NCBI RefSeq assembly: GCF_015265455.1
Contig: NZ_CP054492.1
Coordinates: forward strand, 2,480,001-2,544,000
Length of the DNA: 64,000 bases
Reading direction: 5' to 3'
Source: Candidatus Sulfurimonas baltica
Lineage (GTDB): Bacteria; Campylobacterota; Campylobacteria; Campylobacterales; Sulfurimonadaceae
A program made the translations under genes and the position numbers. Shown here one piece after another: positions 3,764 to 45,992 of the stretch; the stretch's first letter is position 1, and each line of letters opens with the position of its first letter. A model generated the notes under the pieces. That model was not told the DNA's origin. It ran no database searches and saw only the letters and a list, made by a program, of their open reading frames with translations.

Positions 3764-4080
3764 AGATTCTGGGTCAAGCCCAGAATGACGTTTATGAAGA
3801 TTAAGATCCTGAATCAAGTTCAGGATGACGAACACAAAGCAGAATTACTTTCAAGATCCTGAATCAAGTTCAGGATGACGAGCACAGAGCAGAATTACTT
3901 TCAAGATCCTGAATCAAGTTCAGGATGACGAACGTAAAATCTCGTCATTCCAAACACAATCACTCGTCATTCCAAACACAATCACTCGTCATTCCAAACA
4001 CAATCGCTCGTCATTCCAAACACAATCGCTCGTCATTCCAAACACAATCGCTCGTCATTCCAAACTTGATTTGGAATCTA
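3764..4080. repeat. Composite palindrome and 22-bp tandem repeat array, left of the GIY-YIG gene
   Basis: Begins with a full hairpin (arms ATTCTGGG/CCCAGAAT, 3766-3786). Three hairpins with arms ATCCTGAA/TTCAGGAT follow at exactly 50-base spacing (GATCCT at 3805, 3855 and 3905). Then come five units of 22 bases, CTCGTCATTCCAAACACAAT plus CA or CG (unit starts 3941, 3963, 3985, 4007, 4029), and a final complete hairpin (ATTCCAAA CTTGA TTTGGAAT, 4057-4077). Each 22-base unit is only the left arm of that last hairpin with the right arm lost. There are no unique spacers. Confidence 0.9.
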
Positions 4081-4089
4081 GCTCAATTC

Positions 4090-4374
4090 TTACAATATTT
4101 CACTGTATAAATCATTCCAGCTATTATTTACTTTTTCAATCAACTCTACTTTCCACTCTCTTTTCCAAGATTTTAGCTGTTTCTCTCGCTTAATTGCTTC
4201 ATTTATATCATCATAAATTTCATAATAAACTAATTTTTTAAGATTATACTTTTTTGTAAAGCAATCCATTAGTTCATTTTTATGCTCGTAAACTCTTTTA
4301 ATTATATCAGATGTTACACCTATATACAAAGTGCCTTTTGGCTTGTTTGTCATTATGTAAATAAAGGAATTCAT
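4090..4374 (-). CDS. Single-domain GIY-YIG nuclease family protein
   Basis: A 94-residue protein that is little more than a GIY-YIG fold: FIYIMTNKPKGTLYIGVT holds the YIM..YIG core, followed by Arg27 in IIKRVYEHK, a KKLVYYEIYDDINEAI strand-helix with the metal-binding Glu, and KREKQLKSWKREWK. Such small UPF0213-like proteins are widespread; their role is not settled. AAGGA lies six bases before the ATG. The gene sits alone between two arrays of palindromic repeats in the same orientation, which suggests a link between nuclease and repeats (inference). It separates queE from moaA. Confidence 0.85.
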   Translation of the reverse strand: MNSFIYIMTNKPKGTLYIGVTSDIIKRVYEHKNELMDCFTKKYNLKKLVYYEIYDDINEAIKREKQLKSWKREWKVELIEKVNNSWNDLYSEIL

Positions 4375-4389
4375 TTATTTTCCTTAAGC

Positions 4390-4682
4390 TAGATTCTGAG
4401 TCAAGCCCAGAATGACGAACAAAATCACTCGTCATTCCAAACACAATCGCTCGTCATTCCAAACACAATCGCTCGTCATTCCAAACACAATCGCTCGTCA
4501 TTCCAAACACAATCGCTCGTCATTCCAAACACAACCACTCGTCATCCTGAACTTGATTCAGGATCTTAAGCTAGATTCTGGGTCAAGCCCAGAATGACGA
4601 ACATAAAACCTTGTCATTCCAAATGCAATCACTCGTCATTCCAAATACAATCACTCGTCATTCCAAACTTGATTTGGAATCT
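4390..4682. repeat. Composite palindrome and 22-bp tandem repeat array, right of the GIY-YIG gene
   Basis: Mirrors the left array in content and orientation. It opens with a hairpin carrying one arm mismatch (ATTCTGAG/CCCAGAAT), then five 22-base units starting at 4428, 4450, 4472, 4494 and 4516. A complete hairpin with arms ATCCTGAA/TTCAGGAT follows (4538-4567), another with ATTCTGGG/CCCAGAAT, two diverged half units (one with aaatgcaatc, one with aaatacaatc) and a final ATTCCAAA/TTTGGAAT hairpin ending just before the moaA stop. Together with 3764-4080 it brackets the GIY-YIG gene. Confidence 0.9.
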
Positions 4683-4694
4683 AACAAAAAATCA

Positions 4695-5660
4695 TCAACC
4701 GCCAGTTTCGTAAAAAGCGCGGGATGAGCTCTCACCATCTTCACCGCCCCAGCGATTTTTTTCTGGTTTTGTTCTAACTACTTCTCTTAAAACTTCTGCG
4801 GCAGCATTAATGTCACCTGCTTTTATAGCTTTACCGATACTCAGAGCCTCATCAAAATACAAACAAGGGATAAGATTACCCTCGGCAGTAAGTCTTATGC
4901 GATTGCACTTTTTACAAAAGTCATCTGCATAAGGCTCTATAATTCCAAATCTATAACCATCTTTCATTGTGTAGTAGTGTGAGGGTGAAGAGCCGTCAAA
5001 ACCGTCATCTGTAAACTCGTAATGCTCTCTTAAGCGCTCTAAAAGTTCATCTGATTTAAGTCCGCTGATATCTTTAGAAGCAAATTGATTTTCCATGTAC
5101 TCTATAAAACGTATAGACATGTTACGCTCTTTACAGTACTCTAAAACATCTACAATCTCATTTGCATTCATATTATTCATAGGAACCATATTTACTTTAA
5201 CTATAAGACCAACTTTTCTTGCCTCTTCGACACCCTCTAAAACATTTTTTAAAACATCTTTTGCTGCAATTCTGTGTGCTGTTATTGGGTCTAGCGTATC
5301 AATGCTGACATTTATCCGCTTTAATCCTGCATCTTTAAGTTTTTGTGCCGCACCTTTTAGCAAGTAGGCATTAGTTGTCATTGCTAAATCAATACTCGGT
5401 TCATAGTCATAAATCATCTTTATGAATTTATCTAAACCCTCACGAAGAAGTGGTTCTCCACCAGTTATACGGATTTTTTTAACACCTTCGTCTATAGCGA
5501 TTTTCATAAATAAAAAAAGCTCTTCAAAACTAAGGAGATTCTCTTTTGGAACCCATGAAAAAGGCTTTTCCGGCATACAGTACTGACACCTAAAGTTACA
5601 TCGCTCTGTAACGGAGACTCTTAAGTAGTCAACCACTCTCTCATAGCTATCAATTAACAT
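4695..5660 (-). CDS. moaA: GTP 3',8-cyclase MoaA
   Basis: Radical-SAM enzyme for the first step of molybdenum cofactor synthesis: GTP to 3',8-cyclo-GTP, with MoaC. The N-terminal SAM cluster motif is Cys21, Cys25, Cys28 ([12 protein letters not shown]). [10 protein letters not shown] is the GGE motif. The second 4Fe-4S site near the C-terminus is [18 protein letters not shown] (CX2CX13C), and the protein ends in the expected GG. The 321-residue length is normal. The stop lies about 13 bases from the repeat array. moeA in the same window is from the same pathway. Confidence 0.95.
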
Positions 5661-5674
5661 AATAATCTTCTTTT

Positions 5675-6328
5675 TTATTTAGCTAATATCTCAGCTTTTA
5701 GTTTTGTAAACTCATCTTCAGTCAAAATTCCGTCAACTTTTAGCTGATAAGCTTTTTTTACTTCGTCCATTTTAGATGAAGTCGTAGCAGGTATAGACTG
5801 TACTTTTTTAGCAACTGGTTTAGATACTATCTGCGCTTCTTCTTGAGGATCTTCTTCTACAAGTTCTGTAAGTATATTGTCCACTTCTATTGCACGTGAG
5901 CCAGCTAATCCAGTTTTTGCTATCTCTTTTAAACCTAGAGTGCTATCTACTTGAACTAATTCAAATGTAGCACTCTCTGAGTTATTTACAACTTTTAAGT
6001 AGTAAGTCTCTCCTGCCTTAAAATCTATCTTAAGAGCTTGTTCTTGTATATCATTTCTTGTAGTAGAGATTGTAGTAGAGTTTGGCTTTAGGTTAAAAGA
6101 TTTATATTCTCCATCAATAATTCTACCTTCGATTCTTTTATTATTTACACGGATTTTATAGCTTGAACCTGACATATCTTCTCCAGAGCCAACAGATATA
6201 GGAACATAAACATAAACAAGTGCAGCTCCTTGAAGCGGTTCCTCTTTTTTAAATGGAACTTTTGTTCCACATGCTGTAAACATAAGAACTGTTATTAGTA
6301 TAGTTGCTTTTATTAGTATGTTTTTCAT
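5675..6328 (-). CDS. Lipoprotein with DUF2846-like domain and C-terminal SHOCT-like motif
   Basis: I start it at the ATG at 6328 ([14 protein letters not shown]) because a good AAGGATAAG site lies just upstream and this gives a clean lipoprotein signal with lipobox LMFTAC; an in-frame upstream ATG at 6370 would put residues before the signal. The middle part ([19 protein letters not shown]) resembles DUF2846, a small beta-rich domain. After a linker rich in Glu and Pro, the last 30 residues ([20 protein letters not shown]) match the short SHOCT helix pair often found at C-termini. Probably an outer-membrane or periplasmic lipoprotein; role unknown. It lies downstream of the porin but behind that gene's terminator. 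Confidence 0.7.
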
Positions 6329-6451
6329 ATATCTTATCCTTGGGTTTATTAGTGATGTATTATTACACAAAAAGCTTAAATTTTACATTCAAAAATAGAG
6401 AAAAAAAATATTTATAAAAAGTGAGTGTTAAATGATTTAAAACGAAGAATA

Positions 6452-6473
6452 TTTCCAAGCAAAAGCTTGGAAA
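6452..6473 (-). terminator. Rho-independent terminator of the porin gene
   Basis: A perfect 9-bp stem TTTCCAAGC/GCTTGGAAA with a four-base loop lies 38 bases past the porin stop codon. Read on the minus strand it is followed by TATTCTTCGTTTT, a T-rich tail. Confidence 0.8.
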
Positions 6474-6510
6474 TAAGTTTGTCTAGCGACTTTTAAGTTA
6501 AGAGTAACTA

Positions 6511-7863
6511 TTAAAAGTTGTAACGAGCCCAAAGACGGATTCTAGTGTCTTGGTCTGTTCCAGCAGAAGTCAATAAGTGATCTCCTCCATTTGTCTCTGT
6601 TGTTGAAGCAACATCCCAATCACGAACAACTAAAGCAGCGAAATATTGAACACCACCAGCTTTAAGTTTATACATTAAATCAAACTCATTGTAATCTGAA
6701 CGCTCTAAGTTTGCTGCACCAGCAGAAGTTGAACCATACTGAGCGATAACAGTACCCATATCACCCATATTATATGCAGCTTTTACAACAAAAGTGTCAG
6801 CATCAAGTGCGACATTTAGTTGGTTATATACCATTTGAGAGTAAAGTGGTGACTTAACACCTGTTCCAGCATTTGTAATAGATACTGTACCATCATCAAC
6901 AGTAGTATAAATTGCAGTAAGAGTTAACTCTTTAACTGGTTTAATAGAAGCTTTAACACCAAATGCTGATGTATCTTTAAAAGTAGTAGATGCTGCTGTG
7001 TCAGCATCAGGAGCTATAACACCACCTTGAAGACCTAAACTTAGTCCCATAGGTAAATCTTTTCCACCGATAGCTACATCTCCCCAAAAAATACTTGCTC
7101 CACCATATTCTGTTGTACCTGCTACATTTTCAATATCGCCTAAGTCATAATAAGATGCTGTAATAGTAGTATTTGGAAGTGATTTATTTTGAGCAGTTAA
7201 TAAATAAATATTACCATTATATCTAAGTCCAGTAGCATTTGAACCTACACGAGAACCTACATTTAGATTACCAAAGTTTGTAGTATTAAATGGTGCAACT
7301 GGATTACTTTCACCAACAGATGAAGCAACTAAAGTTGTATTTGGTAAATCAGTATTTACAACTAATACAGCATCAAAGCTGTTTTTAAATACATTCCAAC
7401 CCTCTGTATATGCAAAAGGAGAAAGTGCTTTTGGAAGTTGTTGGCGACCAACTTTTACAGTTGTATTACCAATCTTTTTACTGATATTCATTTGAGATAA
7501 AATAATCTCATCAGCTATAGTACTATTAGCACTTCTAGTTGTAGCTGCTTGTCTGTCTCCACCAAGATTTTTATCTAAACTTGCTGTCCCTTTATACTGA
7601 ATCTCAGAACCAAAAGTAAAGTTGTTACCAAGGTCAGCACCTAAACCTAGTTGAACACCAAATTGAATTTCAGAGTTAGGTATTCCTGGGCTTGAATCGT
7701 GTCCATGTCCAAATAAATCACCATTACTATCACCATTGTCAGATTGTGTCTCATAATAAACTACTGCTTGACCAGTTGTTACGATATCTATTCCCTTATC
7801 TGCAGCTACTGCTGATGTTACCAATAATGACGCTGCCGCCAAAGATACTAAAGTTTTTTTCAT
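6511..7863 (-). CDS. Major outer-membrane porin (Campylobacterota type)
   Basis: A 450-residue secreted beta-barrel protein. It has a signal peptide cleaved after about residue 20 (AAASLLVTSAVAA), no cysteines in the barrel, alternating hydrophobic strands and a C-terminal aromatic strand ending in ARYNF, the BAM recognition signature. The early part (VTTGQAVVYYETQ, FGSEIQYKGTASL, VKVGRQQLPKALSPFAY) resembles porins of Sulfurimonas and relatives. A histidine- and aspartate-rich loop (FGHGHDSSPG) near residue 55 may bind a metal (inference). AGGAGA precedes the ATG. A promoter with a long inverted repeat lies upstream and a strong terminator downstream, so it is a single-gene unit, probably highly expressed. 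Confidence 0.85.
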   Translation of the reverse strand: MKKTLVSLAAASLLVTSAVAADKGIDIVTTGQAVVYYETQSDNGDSNGDLFGHGHDSSPGIPNSEIQFGVQLGLGADLGNNFTFGSEIQYKGTASLDKNLGGDRQAATTRSANSTIADEIILSQMNISKKIGNTTVKVGRQQLPKALSPFAYTEGWNVFKNSFDAVLVVNTDLPNTTLVASSVGESNPVAPFNTTNFGNLNVGSRVGSNATGLRYNGNIYLLTAQNKSLPNTTITASYYDLGDIENVAGTTEYGGASIFWGDVAIGGKDLPMGLSLGLQGGVIAPDADTAASTTFKDTSAFGVKASIKPVKELTLTAIYTTVDDGTVSITNAGTGVKSPLYSQMVYNQLNVALDADTFVVKAAYNMGDMGTVIAQYGSTSAGAANLERSDYNEFDLMYKLKAGGVQYFAALVVRDWDVASTTETNGGDHLLTSAGTDQDTRIRLWARYNF

Positions 7864-7893
7864 GTATTTCTCCTGTTTTGTTTAAATATCACT

Positions 7894-7958
7894 ATTATAG
7901 ATTAATTGAGAAGTGATAGCGAAATGACCCTCTCTAAGTCACTTTGCTATCACTTCTC
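7894..7958 (-). promoter_or_regulatory. Porin promoter with 13-bp inverted repeat
   Basis: On the minus strand a TATAAT -10 box occupies 7899-7894. Just upstream are two perfect 13-base arms, GAGAAGTGATAGC (7908-7920) and GCTATCACTTCTC (7946-7958), with a further partly paired inner stem. The inner arm covers the place of the -35 box. This could be an operator pair. The rest of the 274-base spacer 7864-8137 is AT-rich and holds no gene that I can see; it must also carry the promoter of the divergent RDD gene. Confidence 0.55.
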
Positions 7959-8137
7959 AAATACAATAATTAATTTTACTTCACATATCTTACATTAGTT
8001 TTTTTAATTTTAGTTTAAATTATACGATTTTGTTAGTATTTTGTTTACTTTCTTCATTAAATGTATAAATTAAGTATTATTTTATTTATTCTATTTAATT
8101 TGTTATAAAACTGGCTAATATTTGTTATAATTATAAT

Positions 8138-8599
8138 ATGAAATTCAGAACACTAAAAAAGCAAAAAAAAGCAAAAAAGCCCACTGTTAAGTATATATAT
8201 GCTTCTTATTTACATAGAATAAAAGCATTTATTACAGATATGTTTATGATATATGCTCCTATTTTATATTTGATTGCCTATATTATTATGGATGGCAAAG
8301 ATGATTTTCAGTCATCACAACTTGCCCCTTTTATTGGTGTATTGATTTATGGTCTGATATATGCGACTCTATTAAGTAGATTTGGACAGACTCCTGGCAA
8401 AAAAGCTTATGAAATGAAAGTAGTTGATGATAAAAAGGGTGAATTAATCAGTTTTTTTAGAGCGGCTTGCAGATTTATAGCTTTTTTGTTTACAGCATCA
8501 ACACTTCTAGGACTTTTTCTCCCGTTTTACAGAAAAGACAAAAAAGGTCTGCATGATTTAATTTGTGGGACTATTGTTGTTATAGAGAAAAAAGATTAA
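8138..8599 (+). CDS. RDD family membrane protein
   Basis: A 153-residue protein starting with a very basic tail (KFRTLKKQKKAKKPTVK). The RDD signature is visible: YLHRIKAFITDMFMIYAP with the Arg and Asp of the name, GQTPGKKAYEMKVVDDKKGE in the middle, and FYRKDKKGLHDLICGTIVV at the end. There are three likely membrane helices (about 35-52, 65-82, 110-130). RDD proteins are membrane proteins of mostly unknown role; some are linked to transport. It is alone in its transcription unit and is followed by a palindromic repeat array. Confidence 0.85.
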   Translation: MKFRTLKKQKKAKKPTVKYIYASYLHRIKAFITDMFMIYAPILYLIAYIIMDGKDDFQSSQLAPFIGVLIYGLIYATLLSRFGQTPGKKAYEMKVVDDKKGELISFFRAACRFIAFLFTASTLLGLFLPFYRKDKKGLHDLICGTIVVIEKKD

Positions 8600-8614
8600 T
8601 TACTAATTTTATTT

Positions 8615-9008
8615 AGATTCTGAATCGAGTTCAGAATGACGGAGTCTGTTGGTTTTAGATTCTGAATCAAGTTCAGAATGACGGAGTCTGTTGGTTTTAG
8701 ATTCTGAATCAAGTTCAGAATGACGAGGTTTTGTTTCAGGATGACGGAGTTGTGAGTTTTTGAATGACGGAGTGTTTCGTCATTCCAAGCTTGACTTGGA
8801 ATCTAGTTCAGAATGATGGAGTCTGCTGGTTTTAGATTCTGAATCAAGTTCAGAATGACGAGGTTGTGTTTGAGAATGACGAGATTTGTTGATTGGATTC
8901 TGAATCAAGTTCAGAATGACGAGGTTTTGTTTCAGGATGACGAGGTTGTTGTTTCAGAATGACGAGGTTGTGCTTGAGAATGATGAAGTTGTATATTAAG
9001 AATGACGA
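8615..9008. repeat. Array of TTCTGAATCAAGTTCAGAA palindromes with degenerate half-copies
   Basis: Five or more full hairpins with arms ATTCTGAA/TTCAGAAT (one with loop TCGAG), a reverse-oriented one with arms ATTCCAAG/CTTGGAAT near 8782-8802, and many half units of the form TTNAGAATGACGANGTTNTG. The first copies are about 44 bases apart (acggagtctgttggtttt spacer), which marks tandem duplication. Orientation is mostly opposite to the arrays at 3764-4682. It separates the convergent RDD gene and pet operon. No coding potential. Confidence 0.88.
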
Positions 9009-12740: not shown

Positions 12741-14615
12741 TTACTTTTTTCTGCCTGCTATTTTTATATATATATGCAGTATCTCTATCGCCGCGGGAGT
12801 TATTCCGCTTATCATTGATGCTGATTGAAGAGTTGGAGGGTTAAAAGTCTCTAATTTTTCAACAATCTCTGTCGACAACCCGCTAACAATTCTAAAATCA
12901 AAGTTTTCTGGAATTTTGATTTTAAGATATTTTTTCATTTTTTCTATCTCTTCACTCTGCTTTATAATATAACGGGCATATTTCCCCTCGACAAGAATCT
13001 CTTCTTTAATATACTCATCATATTTATCTAGCTCTGGAAGTAGTTTTACCATTTTTGCTACATCAAAAGTTTTTCTAGCAACTAGCTGTTGAGCCGTTAT
13101 GGTGTCTTTTATCTTCTCTTCACCCATAGACTCTAAAAATTCTATAAACTCTTTGTTTGGAGTGTATTTTGTCTCATTAAGAAGTTGTGCACCATCTTGG
13201 ATTTGCTGGTGTTTTAGTTTTACTTTTTCATATACCTCATCACTAAGCAAACCAATCTCATGTCCATATCTGCTGAGTCTTGTATCAGCCGACTCTTCAC
13301 GAAGAAGAAGTCTATACTCTGCACGAGATGTAAACATGCGGTAAGGTTCTTTCGTACCTTTAGTTACCAAATCATCTATCAAAACCCCGATATATGCTTC
13401 ATCTCTACGTAATACAAGTGGCTCTTTTTCTTGAATACTAAGCGTTGCATTTATACCAGCCATCAAACCTTGAGCTGCCGCCTCTTCATAACCTGTTGTT
13501 CCGTTTATCTGTCCAGCAAGGTAAAGACCTTTGATTTTTTTAGTCTCTAACGAGTGTTTCAGTTCTCTTGGGTCTACAAAATCATACTCTATTGCATATC
13601 CATAGCGTACAATTTTTGCATTTTCCATCCCTTTTACGGAATGAATCATCTGCTGTTGAACCTCTGGCGGTAAAGATGTGCTCATACCATTTATATAGCA
13701 CTCTGTATTTTCCATAGTTTGCGGTTCAATAAAGAGGTGGTGTCTGTCTTTATCACGAAATCTATTCACTTTATCTTCTATGCTTGGGCAGTATCTTGGT
13801 CCAGTTCCCTCAATTTGACCCGTAAACAGTGGCGCTCTGTAAAAATTTGACTCGATTATATTATGAGTGTTTTCATTTGTGTAAGCTATAAAACATGGGA
13901 TTTGCTTCTTAGTTTTTCTAAACTCTTCGCGATTTGTTCTAAAACTAAATGGACTTGGAACTTCGTCTCCACCCTGCTCATCCATAACAGAAAAGTCAAT
14001 TGACGAGCTGTCAATTCTGGCACATGTACCAGTTTTAAGCCTCCCCATTTGCAGTCCGCATTTTTTCAGTGACTCACTAAGACCTACGCTCGTCTGCTCA
14101 CCAAAACGGCCACCCTCTTGTTTAATCTCACCAATATGAATAACACCTTTTAAAAATGTTCCACTTGTTACAATTACTTTTTTAGCTCTGTATTCATTTA
14201 AGAGGTTTGTTTTAACACCTTTTACCTCTTCGTCTTCTACTATAAGTGATTCTGCCATCTCTTGAACTAAGTCAAGATTTGGAGTAGTTAAGACTTTATT
14301 TCTTGCAATAACACGGTACTTATCCATATCTATCTGAGCACGAGAACCACGAACAGCAGGACCCTTTGTCTCATTTAAGATGCGAAACTGAATACCCGCT
14401 TCATCTGTAATAAGTCCCATTTCACCGCCAAGTGCATCTAGCTCACGAACCAAATGTCCTTTTGCCAAACCGCCGATAGCAGGGTTACAACTTGTAGCAC
14501 CTACATTTTCGGCAAGCATTGAAATCATTAAGGTTTTACTACCCATTCTAGCACTAGAAAGCGCAGCTTCAACACCTGCATGACCGCCGCCAATTATTAT
14601 TACATCATAATTCAT
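12741..14615 (-). CDS. mnmG: tRNA uridine-5-carboxymethylaminomethyl synthesis enzyme MnmG (GidA)
   Basis: FAD enzyme that, with MnmE, adds a carboxymethylaminomethyl or aminomethyl group to U34 of certain tRNAs. The N-terminal FAD site is [19 protein letters not shown]; the MnmG signatures [18 protein letters not shown] (about residues 43-60) and [13 protein letters not shown] (near 270) are intact, as is [16 protein letters not shown] near 370. The 624-residue length is normal. An mnmC-like gene further along (18128) could act on its product. The neighbouring Sel1-repeat gene is divergent. Confidence 0.97.
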
Positions 14616-14707: not shown

Positions 14708-15394
14708 ATGATAAACAAAGCACACGAAGCCTATAATAAAGGTGATTTTACGACTGCTTTTGAGCTGTATTCAACATTAGCAGAGAGTGGCAATGCAGAT
14801 GCTCAAACCTCTTTGGCATACATGTATCAAAATGCCCAAGGGTGTGAAAAAAACGATAAAAATGCACTTGAACTTTACGAAAAAGCAGCTGAGGCAAAAC
14901 AACCGTATGCACTTTTTAATTTAGCTATACTTTATATGAATGGTCTCGGTGGAGTACAACACGACCAATTCAAAGCACATGACCTTCACATGGAGGCCGC
15001 TACAAGAGAAGTTCCGCCTGCCATGTATGAAGCTGCACTGATGCTTGAGCGTGGACTTGGATGTTCACAGAACTATTCCGAGGCTGCTTTTTGGTATGAA
15101 GAGGGGGCAAAGAGAGGACATCTGGAATCTTTTAACAACCTTGGTGTCCTTTATAAAGAGGGTCATGGCGTTAGTTTAGACGAAGCTAGATGTTTTATCT
15201 GTTTTTCTAAAGCCGCCGAAGGTGGGTTGGCTGAAGGTCTTTACAACCTCGGTCAACTATACGATCAAGGTTTTGGGTGCGAGCAAGACCACGATATGGC
15301 ACTTGACTTGTGCAGAAAGGCTGCCTATAAAGGTCATGTAAAGGCTAAAGCAATTATAAAAGGTCTTCAAGAAGAGGGAAAGATAGTTTTTTAA
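14708..15394 (+). CDS. Sel1-like repeat protein
   Basis: 228 residues made almost wholly of about six Sel1-type (SLR) helical repeats of 36 residues, with the usual pattern of alanine, LYxxG and GxGVxxD (ADAQTSLAYMYQNAQGC, PYALFNLAILYMNGLGG, ESFNNLGVLYKEGHGV, EGLYNLGQLYDQGFGC). No signal peptide, so probably cytoplasmic, unlike the cysteine-rich secreted Hcp proteins of Helicobacter. The repeats form a solenoid for protein binding. Partner unknown. Its stop is followed by two palindromic repeats and then ribE. Confidence 0.85.
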   Translation: MINKAHEAYNKGDFTTAFELYSTLAESGNADAQTSLAYMYQNAQGCEKNDKNALELYEKAAEAKQPYALFNLAILYMNGLGGVQHDQFKAHDLHMEAATREVPPAMYEAALMLERGLGCSQNYSEAAFWYEEGAKRGHLESFNNLGVLYKEGHGVSLDEARCFICFSKAAEGGLAEGLYNLGQLYDQGFGCEQDHDMALDLCRKAAYKGHVKAKAIIKGLQEEGKIVF

Positions 15395-15401
15395 CGGAGG
15401 A

Positions 15402-15460
15402 GATTCCAAATCAAGTTTGGAATGACAACACACGTCATCCTGAACTTGATTCAGGATCTA
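15402..15460. repeat. Two inverted palindromic repeats in the ribE leader
   Basis: ATTCCAAA TCAAG TTTGGAAT (15403-15423) and ATCCTGAA CTTGA TTCAGGAT (15437-15457), in opposite orientations. The second ends only a few bases before the ribE ribosome binding site (AAAAGGAGAT, 15461-15470). In RNA the hairpin would stand directly upstream of the site. Confidence 0.85.
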
Positions 15461-15473
15461 AAAAGGAGATAAC

Positions 15474-16091
15474 ATTTTTACAGGACTAATAAGAGAGATA
15501 GCTAATGTTAAAAGTTTAGCAGGAAGCACTCTAACAATAAAAGCAAAACACAAAGCAAAAATCGGTGATTCTATTGCTATAAACGGTGCGTGTCTAACAG
15601 TTATAAAAGTTTTAAATGATGGCTTTAGTGTTGAGCTCTCCCCTGAGAGTCAAAAACTTTTAGCTATGGAGAACTACAAAAATGAAGTTCACATAGAACC
15701 TGCCATGATGATGGGCGATAGATTTGAAGGACATGTTGTTCAAGGACATGTAGATTGTATTGGCACTATAAAAGAGATAAGAAACAACGGAAACTCCTTT
15801 GATGTTTTTATACATGTAGATAAAAAATACATAGCTTTTGTTATTCCTAAAGGCTCTATAACCATAGATGGGGTCAGTCTTACTGTTAATGATGTAATGA
15901 GTGATAGTTTTAGACTCACTATAATTCCCCATACAATGAAAGAGACACTTTTTAGAAACTATAAAAAAGGCTCAAAAGTAAATGTAGAGACAGATATGTT
16001 TGCCAGATATGTTTCACACATAATCGCTCATCAGAGTAAAGCAGCCTCTCTTTCATGGGACGAAGTTGACTCAATAAGTGCAAGATATTAA
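15474..16091 (+). CDS. ribE: Riboflavin synthase alpha chain, apparent ATT start
   Basis: Makes riboflavin from two molecules of 6,7-dimethyl-8-ribityllumazine. The product is 205 residues with the two lumazine-binding barrels: FTGLIREIANV, then SIAINGACLTVIKV in the first, and GHVVQGHVDCIGTI and SITIDGVSLTVNDV in the second. RibE proteins begin MFTGLI, and here that place is ATT at 15474. An in-frame TAA at 15459 and no ATG, GTG or TTG before codon 65 leave ATT as the only start giving the full N-terminal barrel. AAGGAGAT lies at ideal spacing. Starting at ATG 15666 would delete most of the first barrel. The downstream flhB-like gene follows by two bases. Confidence 0.9.
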   Translation: MFTGLIREIANVKSLAGSTLTIKAKHKAKIGDSIAINGACLTVIKVLNDGFSVELSPESQKLLAMENYKNEVHIEPAMMMGDRFEGHVVQGHVDCIGTIKEIRNNGNSFDVFIHVDKKYIAFVIPKGSITIDGVSLTVNDVMSDSFRLTIIPHTMKETLFRNYKKGSKVNVETDMFARYVSHIIAHQSKAASLSWDEVDSISARY

Positions 16092-44812: not shown

Positions 44813-45319
44813 TTAATATTCAAAAGCCTCTTTAGCTCTAGTGTCGGCTTTAACATTGTAAAATCTTTGAACATCTTGCACATTGGCTTTTGCCATAATA
44901 TCCCATCTTCCCTCTTGAGGAAGTTTGATAGTTGCAAAAGTATAAACTCCATTTTCAACTGACGGATTACTCAGCTCTTGGTCGTGCTTATGGTTGTTTG
45001 GTCTTGTAACAATCACTTTTATCTTTGCACTATTTACCGGTTGAGAGTTTACGTCGGTAACCCTATATTTTATTGTTGAACCCTCTACATGTAAAGTATC
45101 AGTGATATACTCAATCTTATATTTTTTATCAAATGCAATCTTTGCTTGTATTAACTCATTTGCTTTTGCATCAGCTTCATGATAGCCCATCATATAAGTA
45201 TCACTCTTTTCAACTGGAAGTGTGTTAGCAACAACTACAGTCACTATACAGGCACTAAACACAAGCATAATTGATATACCGATTGCATATGGCCAAATTC
45301 TACCGTTAGCTATGTTCAT
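44813..45319 (-). CDS. FixH family protein
   Basis: 168 residues with an N-terminal membrane anchor (IWPYAIGISIMLVFSACIVTVVVA) and a periplasmic beta domain (YRVTDVNSQPVNSAKIKVIVTRP, GRWDIMAKANVQD) typical of FixH, an accessory protein for cbb3 oxidase assembly, with a proposed part in copper handling. It stands at the end of the cco operon, as in relatives. It overlaps the preceding gene by 14 bases. Confidence 0.8.
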   Translation of the reverse strand: MNIANGRIWPYAIGISIMLVFSACIVTVVVANTLPVEKSDTYMMGYHEADAKANELIQAKIAFDKKYKIEYITDTLHVEGSTIKYRVTDVNSQPVNSAKIKVIVTRPNNHKHDQELSNPSVENGVYTFATIKLPQEGRWDIMAKANVQDVQRFYNVKADTRAKEAFEY

Positions 45320-45992
45320 TTTTTTTCCTTATAAAATATAGTTTTCTTTTAATATACAAGACTATGCCATAAACAATAATGCCGTAAAACAATACCTTCA
45401 CGAGTAAAATACTGTTTTGATTAGCATTGCCGACTGCATTTTGCAAAACTACATTTTTACTTTCTGCTATCTGCTCTGCAATATCAGCGTAACCGTTAAA
45501 CATAGAACCACTGTACTTTCCAAGGATTTCTCCTTTTTTAGCTTTTTGAGCCAAGAGAGGCAAGATTGTACCGCCGCTTGTCATATCACTAAAATCCATA
45601 TTCATCAAAGCAATTACAAAAGCTTGAACCGGTGATGAAATGGGGCTTAAAATCTGTTTTTTATCGAAATACTTATATAAAGATGGCTCGCTTGCCAATA
45701 TATCCACTTTGGAGTCCATCTCTGAAAAGGTAAGCAAAATCGTAGGCTCACTGAAATCTTTCATCAGCTCTTTTTCATACTCAACTATATGCATCTTGTT
45801 TGGGAGCTCTTTAAGCATAATAAGTCTTAAAGATATTCCCGTTTTTTGATATAGTTCAGAACCCAGTTTCTCAATCTGTTCACTAAAAGCAGGATTGAAA
45901 ATAACTTCATCTTTATATAAATATTGCGCTGTAAGTGATGTGTTAAACAGTACTGTGAGGATGAGGGCCGCAAGCCCTCTAGAAAATTTCAA
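45306..45992 (-). CDS. TPM-domain-like secreted protein of the cco operon
   Basis: 228 residues: signal peptide (RGLAALILTVLFNTSLTA), then a domain like TPM (FSEQIEKLGSELYQKTGISLRLIML, TILLTFSEMDSKVDILASEP) and a C-terminal membrane helix followed by KRKLYFIRKKNEHS. TPM domains have been linked to photosystem repair and to phosphatase activity; here the position between ccoP/DUF4006 and fixH suggests help in cytochrome oxidase biogenesis (inference). The tail is cytoplasmic and basic. Confidence 0.65.
   Translation of the reverse strand: MKFSRGLAALILTVLFNTSLTAQYLYKDEVIFNPAFSEQIEKLGSELYQKTGISLRLIMLKELPNKMHIVEYEKELMKDFSEPTILLTFSEMDSKVDILASEPSLYKYFDKKQILSPISSPVQAFVIALMNMDFSDMTSGGTILPLLAQKAKKGEILGKYSGSMFNGYADIAEQIAESKNVVLQNAVGNANQNSILLVKVLFYGIIVYGIVLYIKRKLYFIRKKNEHS

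Follow-up and report, generated by a model that had tools for sequence, protein, structure and literature searches.

Translation starts of the AUU class are already known from infC, pcnB, cvfC1, ccpN and citZ. A 2017 paper by Hecht is said to deal with all 64 codons. The infC start is ATT in Escherichia coli and ATC in Streptomyces (PMC5472188), pcnB of E. coli has an AUU start and is translationally limited (cited in PMC13009471), and in S. aureus cvfC1 starts with AUU and ccpN, citZ and infC with AUA, three of these genes having an extended Shine-Dalgarno sequence (PMC13009471). In a comparison of 36 genome triplets (PMC5622118), a change to AUU is given for one of 61,358 ancestral AUG starts and one of 5,080 ancestral GUG starts, and is listed for none of 2,468 UUG starts.

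The gene considered here is ribE, a vitamin B2 gene, of Candidatus Sulfurimonas baltica, which is a bacterium of the sulfur-oxidising type and whose genome is one contig of 2.74 Mb in which ribE occurs once. It lies in a stretch of 64,000 nucleotides that was analysed as a whole and is called the window; the positions below are those of the window.

15474..16091, + strand: riboflavin synthase gene ribE, 205 codons before the stop, the only copy in this genome
15474..15476, + strand: ATT start codon of ribE, from direct reading, conservation of codons 2-61 and its presence also in the related locus L010
15463..15468, + strand: Shine-Dalgarno sequence AAGGAG, five bases before the ATT, forming a duplex of -8.9 kcal/mol with the anti-Shine-Dalgarno, unpaired in the predicted fold
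15459..15461, + strand: in-frame TAA, the upstream limit of the open ribE frame
15666..15668, + strand: ATG at codon 65, the first in-frame canonical start and the likely start for an automatic caller
14708..15394, + strand: Sel1-repeat gene with an ATG start, the conserved neighbour upstream of ribE
15398..15459, + strand: palindromic repeat of a dispersed kind, downstream of the Sel1 gene and ahead of ribE, with 49 further matching places in the genome, many of them partial
15422..15472, + strand: 16-codon ORF inside the repeat, its TAA ending one base before the ATT, probably incidental

After the TAA the frame reads AAA GGA GAT AAC ATT and goes on with TTT ACA GGA CTA ATA, the protein beginning FTGLIRE. 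The sequence-only reading had described an ATT start with a strong, ideally spaced Shine-Dalgarno sequence, a TAA five codons upstream and no canonical codon before codon 65, and all of this is borne out: ATG, GTG and TTG are absent from the frame between the TAA and the ATG at 15666, and of the in-frame codons from the TAA to FTGLIRE, ATT alone differs from ATG by a single base. The product matches the NCBIfam model TIGR00187 (ribE) from profile position 2, scoring 202.6 bits where the cut-off is 156.6, and contains two Lum_binding stretches (PF00677). Gene callers by default usually accept ATG, GTG and TTG as starts, and in genomes of this kind they would likely trim much of the first lumazine-binding barrel of RibE or miss the gene.

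The nearest species, represented by L010, has a RibE protein of 97% identity amid different surrounding bases and also starts with ATT, in a similar AAAAGGA-ATAAC-ATT region that lacks the window's repeat; on the ribE tree the two genes, both with ATT, are sisters with a support of 99. Over codons 2-61 they differ by 26.0 synonymous and 2.0 nonsynonymous changes (dS 1.38, dN 0.015). Since change in these codons is nearly all synonymous, the stretch before codon 65 is translated, and since it contains no canonical codon, the start codon has to be one other than ATG, GTG or TTG. As judged from the sequences, a canonical start cannot yield the conserved RibE protein, and the observation that ribE appears to start at the ATT at 15474 is confirmed; we infer that initiation is by fMet at the AUU itself. 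When 263 ORFs of the window and the matching stretches of three relatives were compared, by a test that misses genes with the next canonical codon no more than 15 codons away, ribE stood out in all three ATT genomes. Only one other ORF showed coding conservation well upstream of its first canonical codon, a 2-thiouracil desulfurase-like gene in one relative, and three further ORFs, with ATG starts and a Shine-Dalgarno sequence nearby, were flagged between the two closest genomes only.

The start codon was read across the genus, a check that the sequence-only reading had proposed. A match to ribE was found in 95 genomes and start regions were taken from 90 of them, as 30 loci and 60 stretches (G001, G020, the partial G015, G030 and G087 were left out, as were second or partial ribE copies in G016, G054 and G075). 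Merged with 80 loci from genomic contigs, they yielded 112 distinct genes. In one relative, G016, ribE is present as two complete copies separated by about 2.7 kb (C47:11187-11795 and 13859-14467). The 112 distinct Sulfurimonas genes begin with ATG (50), TTG (48), ATT (11), ATC (1), ATA (1) or GTG (1), and three additional genus members with TTG, GTG and TTG. The ribE start therefore varies among close relatives: 13 of 115 distinct genes have a start of the ATT type (ATT 11, ATC 1, ATA 1) and the remainder ATG, TTG or GTG, although 3 of the 13 assignments (L050, L037/L077 and L148/L107) are less certain as an in-frame canonical codon lies upstream. L126 and L179 were assessed by eye and each has an in-frame stop close upstream. 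The ATT start of ribE is not peculiar to one genome but recurs genus-wide, which was out of reach of the sequence-only reading. An order-wide search gave 148 genomes with a match, from which 40 start regions were hand-picked to span families; in 39 of these 40 loci the start codon is followed at once by FTGLIRE or a near variant, the starts being ATG, TTG and GTG. No ATT-type start was seen among 37 ribE genes outside the genus (ATG 24, TTG 7, GTG 6), compared with 13 of 115 inside it (Fisher p 0.04, taking as independent sequences that are not so).

Starts of the AUU class are regarded as very rare, yet a single gene of this genus has entered or left the class between seven and ten times. On a gene tree (not a species tree) built from 122 ribE sequences, the ATT-type state changes nine times in a quick reconstruction and eight times in a careful one, and over 1000 bootstrap trees from 7 to 10 times, with 8 the most frequent value; in all these counts gains are not separable from losses. 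Clades with an SH-aLRT of at least 95 bring ATT-type genes together with others, namely L179 with L178 (ATG) and L174 (TTG), and L126 with L127 (ATG).

This turnover stands beside fixed starts in other genes, as ribH begins with ATG and infC with TTG in all 30 genus loci. The window gene at 45992 likewise has TTG in 30 of 30; it is a 228-codon gene on the minus strand (45309-45992) without a Pfam match and, like infC, has a fixed UUG start in the genus. In 29 of 30 loci an MgtE_N-like gene has a canonical start within four codons, the remaining locus being cut off by its contig, and the Sel1 neighbour has one in all 86 readable cases of 95. The desulfurase-like gene has ATT in 1 of 30, with one further row unclear (L314, which lacks a canonical codon in frame close to the start, possibly through a frameshift, and was counted as not ATT-type). 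Pooled, the genus controls are of the ATT type in 1 of 235 cases against 13 of 115 for ribE (Fisher p 3e-6, kinship ignored). An flhB-like neighbour, kept outside the pooled count, gave 20 matches, of which 18 had a canonical start, 1 an ATG one codon later and 1 was unclear. The single desulfurase-like case (PF04463; L190:14245-14697 in relative G047) has an apparent ATT after AGGAG and an in-frame TAG just upstream, and a canonical start lies nearby in 28 of the 29 other genus loci.

Start codon and Shine-Dalgarno sequence are linked in ribE. The median duplex energy is -4.5 for ATG (n=50), -5.8 for TTG (n=49) and -7.7 for ATT/ATC/ATA (n=13), one of the 112 rows being too near a contig end for scoring. 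With kinship ignored, the difference from ATG is significant for the ATT type (p = 8e-4) and for TTG (p = 2e-6). The ATT type and TTG do not differ significantly in duplex energy (p = 0.79), and extra compensation beyond that of UUG is therefore not demonstrated. Among 25 kinship-independent pairs, about 15 linked the non-ATG start to a Shine-Dalgarno match of at least 5 and none showed the opposite (median p 6e-5). When ATT-type starts were paired with ATG only, 3 or 4 of 5 independent pairs on supported branches were as expected and none went against, the median p of 0.125 reflecting a number of pairs too small for a test. Weak ribE starts thus accompany strong Shine-Dalgarno sequences, also when kinship is allowed for. 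Shine-Dalgarno compensation has been described for GUG and UUG starts (PMC5622118), and the ribE pattern fits it, extended to codons of the AUU class.

It is probable that ribE is initiated at AUU by ordinary fMet, with the help of a strong Shine-Dalgarno sequence and at a low set rate, and that start codon and Shine-Dalgarno sequence trade off over evolution. The ordinary initiator tRNA would begin ribE at the AUU at 15474, and the strong Shine-Dalgarno sequence at its ideal spacing would keep the 30S subunit on this codon and offset the poor match of codon and anticodon at the third base. Presumably the cell requires little riboflavin synthase, and for this reason a low initiation rate may be enough. 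Selection on the initiation rate of ribE is what we infer: it would act on the overall rate, while start codon and Shine-Dalgarno sequence would drift jointly, giving either AUG with a weak Shine-Dalgarno sequence or UUG, AUU, AUC or AUA with a strong one. The genus would then offer a natural experiment on this trade-off. A low output of RibE from AUU is plausible by analogy with reporters in S. aureus, where AUU and AUA starts are reported to give about 10% of AUG (PMC13009471). A tentative further reading makes ribE a hot spot of starts that IF3 discriminates against, in which AUU, AUC and AUA arose several times because output is set, or controlled by IF3, at initiation; if true, a single metabolic gene would provide a natural series of start codons, each with a Shine-Dalgarno sequence to match.

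A rival reading is that the AUU-type start persists for the sake of regulation, with IF3 repressing ribE such that riboflavin synthesis tracks the state of initiation factors and ribosomes. IF3 represses starts other than ATG, GTG and TTG, as described for the GTC of sigR in Streptomyces (PMC5472188, with PMC2268962 also cited for the IF3 sensitivity of such codons), and in vitro it is reported to have made initiation less frequent where a CAU anticodon reads AUU (PMC10158994); the AUA start of ccpN in S. aureus is medium-dependent (PMC13009471). The three codons AUU, AUC and AUA that recur in ribE all belong to the IF3-repressed class, and it is possible that IF3 sensitivity of the ribE AUU would follow from the known behaviour of such codons. 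However, the same gene has AUG or UUG in 98 of 112 cases and near sisters differ, a turnover which speaks against a needed control device. Furthermore, infC of the genus has TTG in every locus read, so that there is no AUU-type infC loop beside ribE. Retention of the start for the sake of IF3 control is accordingly considered unlikely.

More doubtful still is a start at some other non-canonical codon, or one by reinitiation once the 16-codon ORF has terminated. The ORF at 15422-15472 is present, some ORF ends within about 30 bases upstream of 7 of the 13 ATT-type genes, and the three genes with an in-frame canonical codon upstream (L050, L037/L077 and L148/L107) might start there. However, no such ORF precedes the other 6 of 13, the sister L010 among them, and the 16-codon ORF sits in a repeat that the sister lacks; the FTGLIRE motif right after the start in all but one of the outgroup-search loci argues against a start elsewhere. 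Termination-reinitiation was rejected as a general explanation, as ORF ends are no commoner before ATT-type starts (7/13) than before ATG (37/48) or TTG (35/47) starts.

The sequence-only reading had also suggested that an earlier start region may have been lost through the palindromic repeat, which would make the ATT a makeshift for a destroyed ATG. A search with a hand-picked motif found ATT or ATA in 4 of 5 leaders with such a repeat, a post hoc result that includes two sisters, but an unbiased palindrome score shows no link, palindromes at stem score 8 occurring before 1 of 13 ATT-type starts and 6 of 107 others. The suggestion does not hold up, since the sister species has ATT without the repeat, and insertion of the repeat is a very improbable cause of the ATT. 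The repeat is predicted to fold as one hairpin that leaves the Shine-Dalgarno sequence and the AUU free. Several of its copies are clustered near genome positions 2483801-2488867 (window 3801-8867). A different dispersed hairpin, GCTWGCCTC-loop-GAGGCAGA, lies between the Sel1 gene and ribE in L010, L048, L051, L055, L062, L132, L149, L152 and others. Exact copies number from 1 to 5 in four of the six genomes searched, and the window's genome has none, for which reason the hairpin was taken as a dispersed element and its candidacy as a riboswitch was set aside. At gathering scores Rfam has no match within the window.

An altered initiator tRNA that reads AUU can be dismissed almost entirely, given two identical initiator genes with a CAU anticodon and a GGG/CCC stem, while a scan of 19 loci reported no initiator gene out of the ordinary. 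The same is true of sequencing error or a decaying ribE: error is excluded because the ATT type recurs in 13 of 115 genes, ATT itself is common to L010 and present in 11 distinct genes, codons 2-61 are under strong purifying selection, and the ribE frames are free of internal stops.

A ribE case, or repeated change into the AUU class within one gene of a single genus, was not found in the open-access literature searched, which is weak evidence that none has been described. With AUU initiation by ordinary fMet as the preferred reading, the locus can be set beside the described systems. The infC gene of E. coli and Streptomyces, like ribE, combines a start of the AUU class with an essential gene, but it encodes IF3 and is autoregulated, whereas ribE is metabolic and infC in this genus starts with TTG. 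An AUU start outside infC with low output is found in pcnB, which differs from ribE in gene and lineage. The S. aureus set includes a metabolic gene, citZ, with an AUA start, and its starts were detected by ribosome footprints, whereas that of ribE is read here from sequence; the starts of cvfC1 and ccpN are stated to be conserved (PMC13009471), whereas the ribE start changes between species. Finally, sigR of Streptomyces shares with ribE a start outside ATG, GTG and TTG, but there the codon is GTC, its repression by IF3 was shown experimentally and it is described as well conserved in the genus (PMC5472188), whereas the ribE start is ATT.
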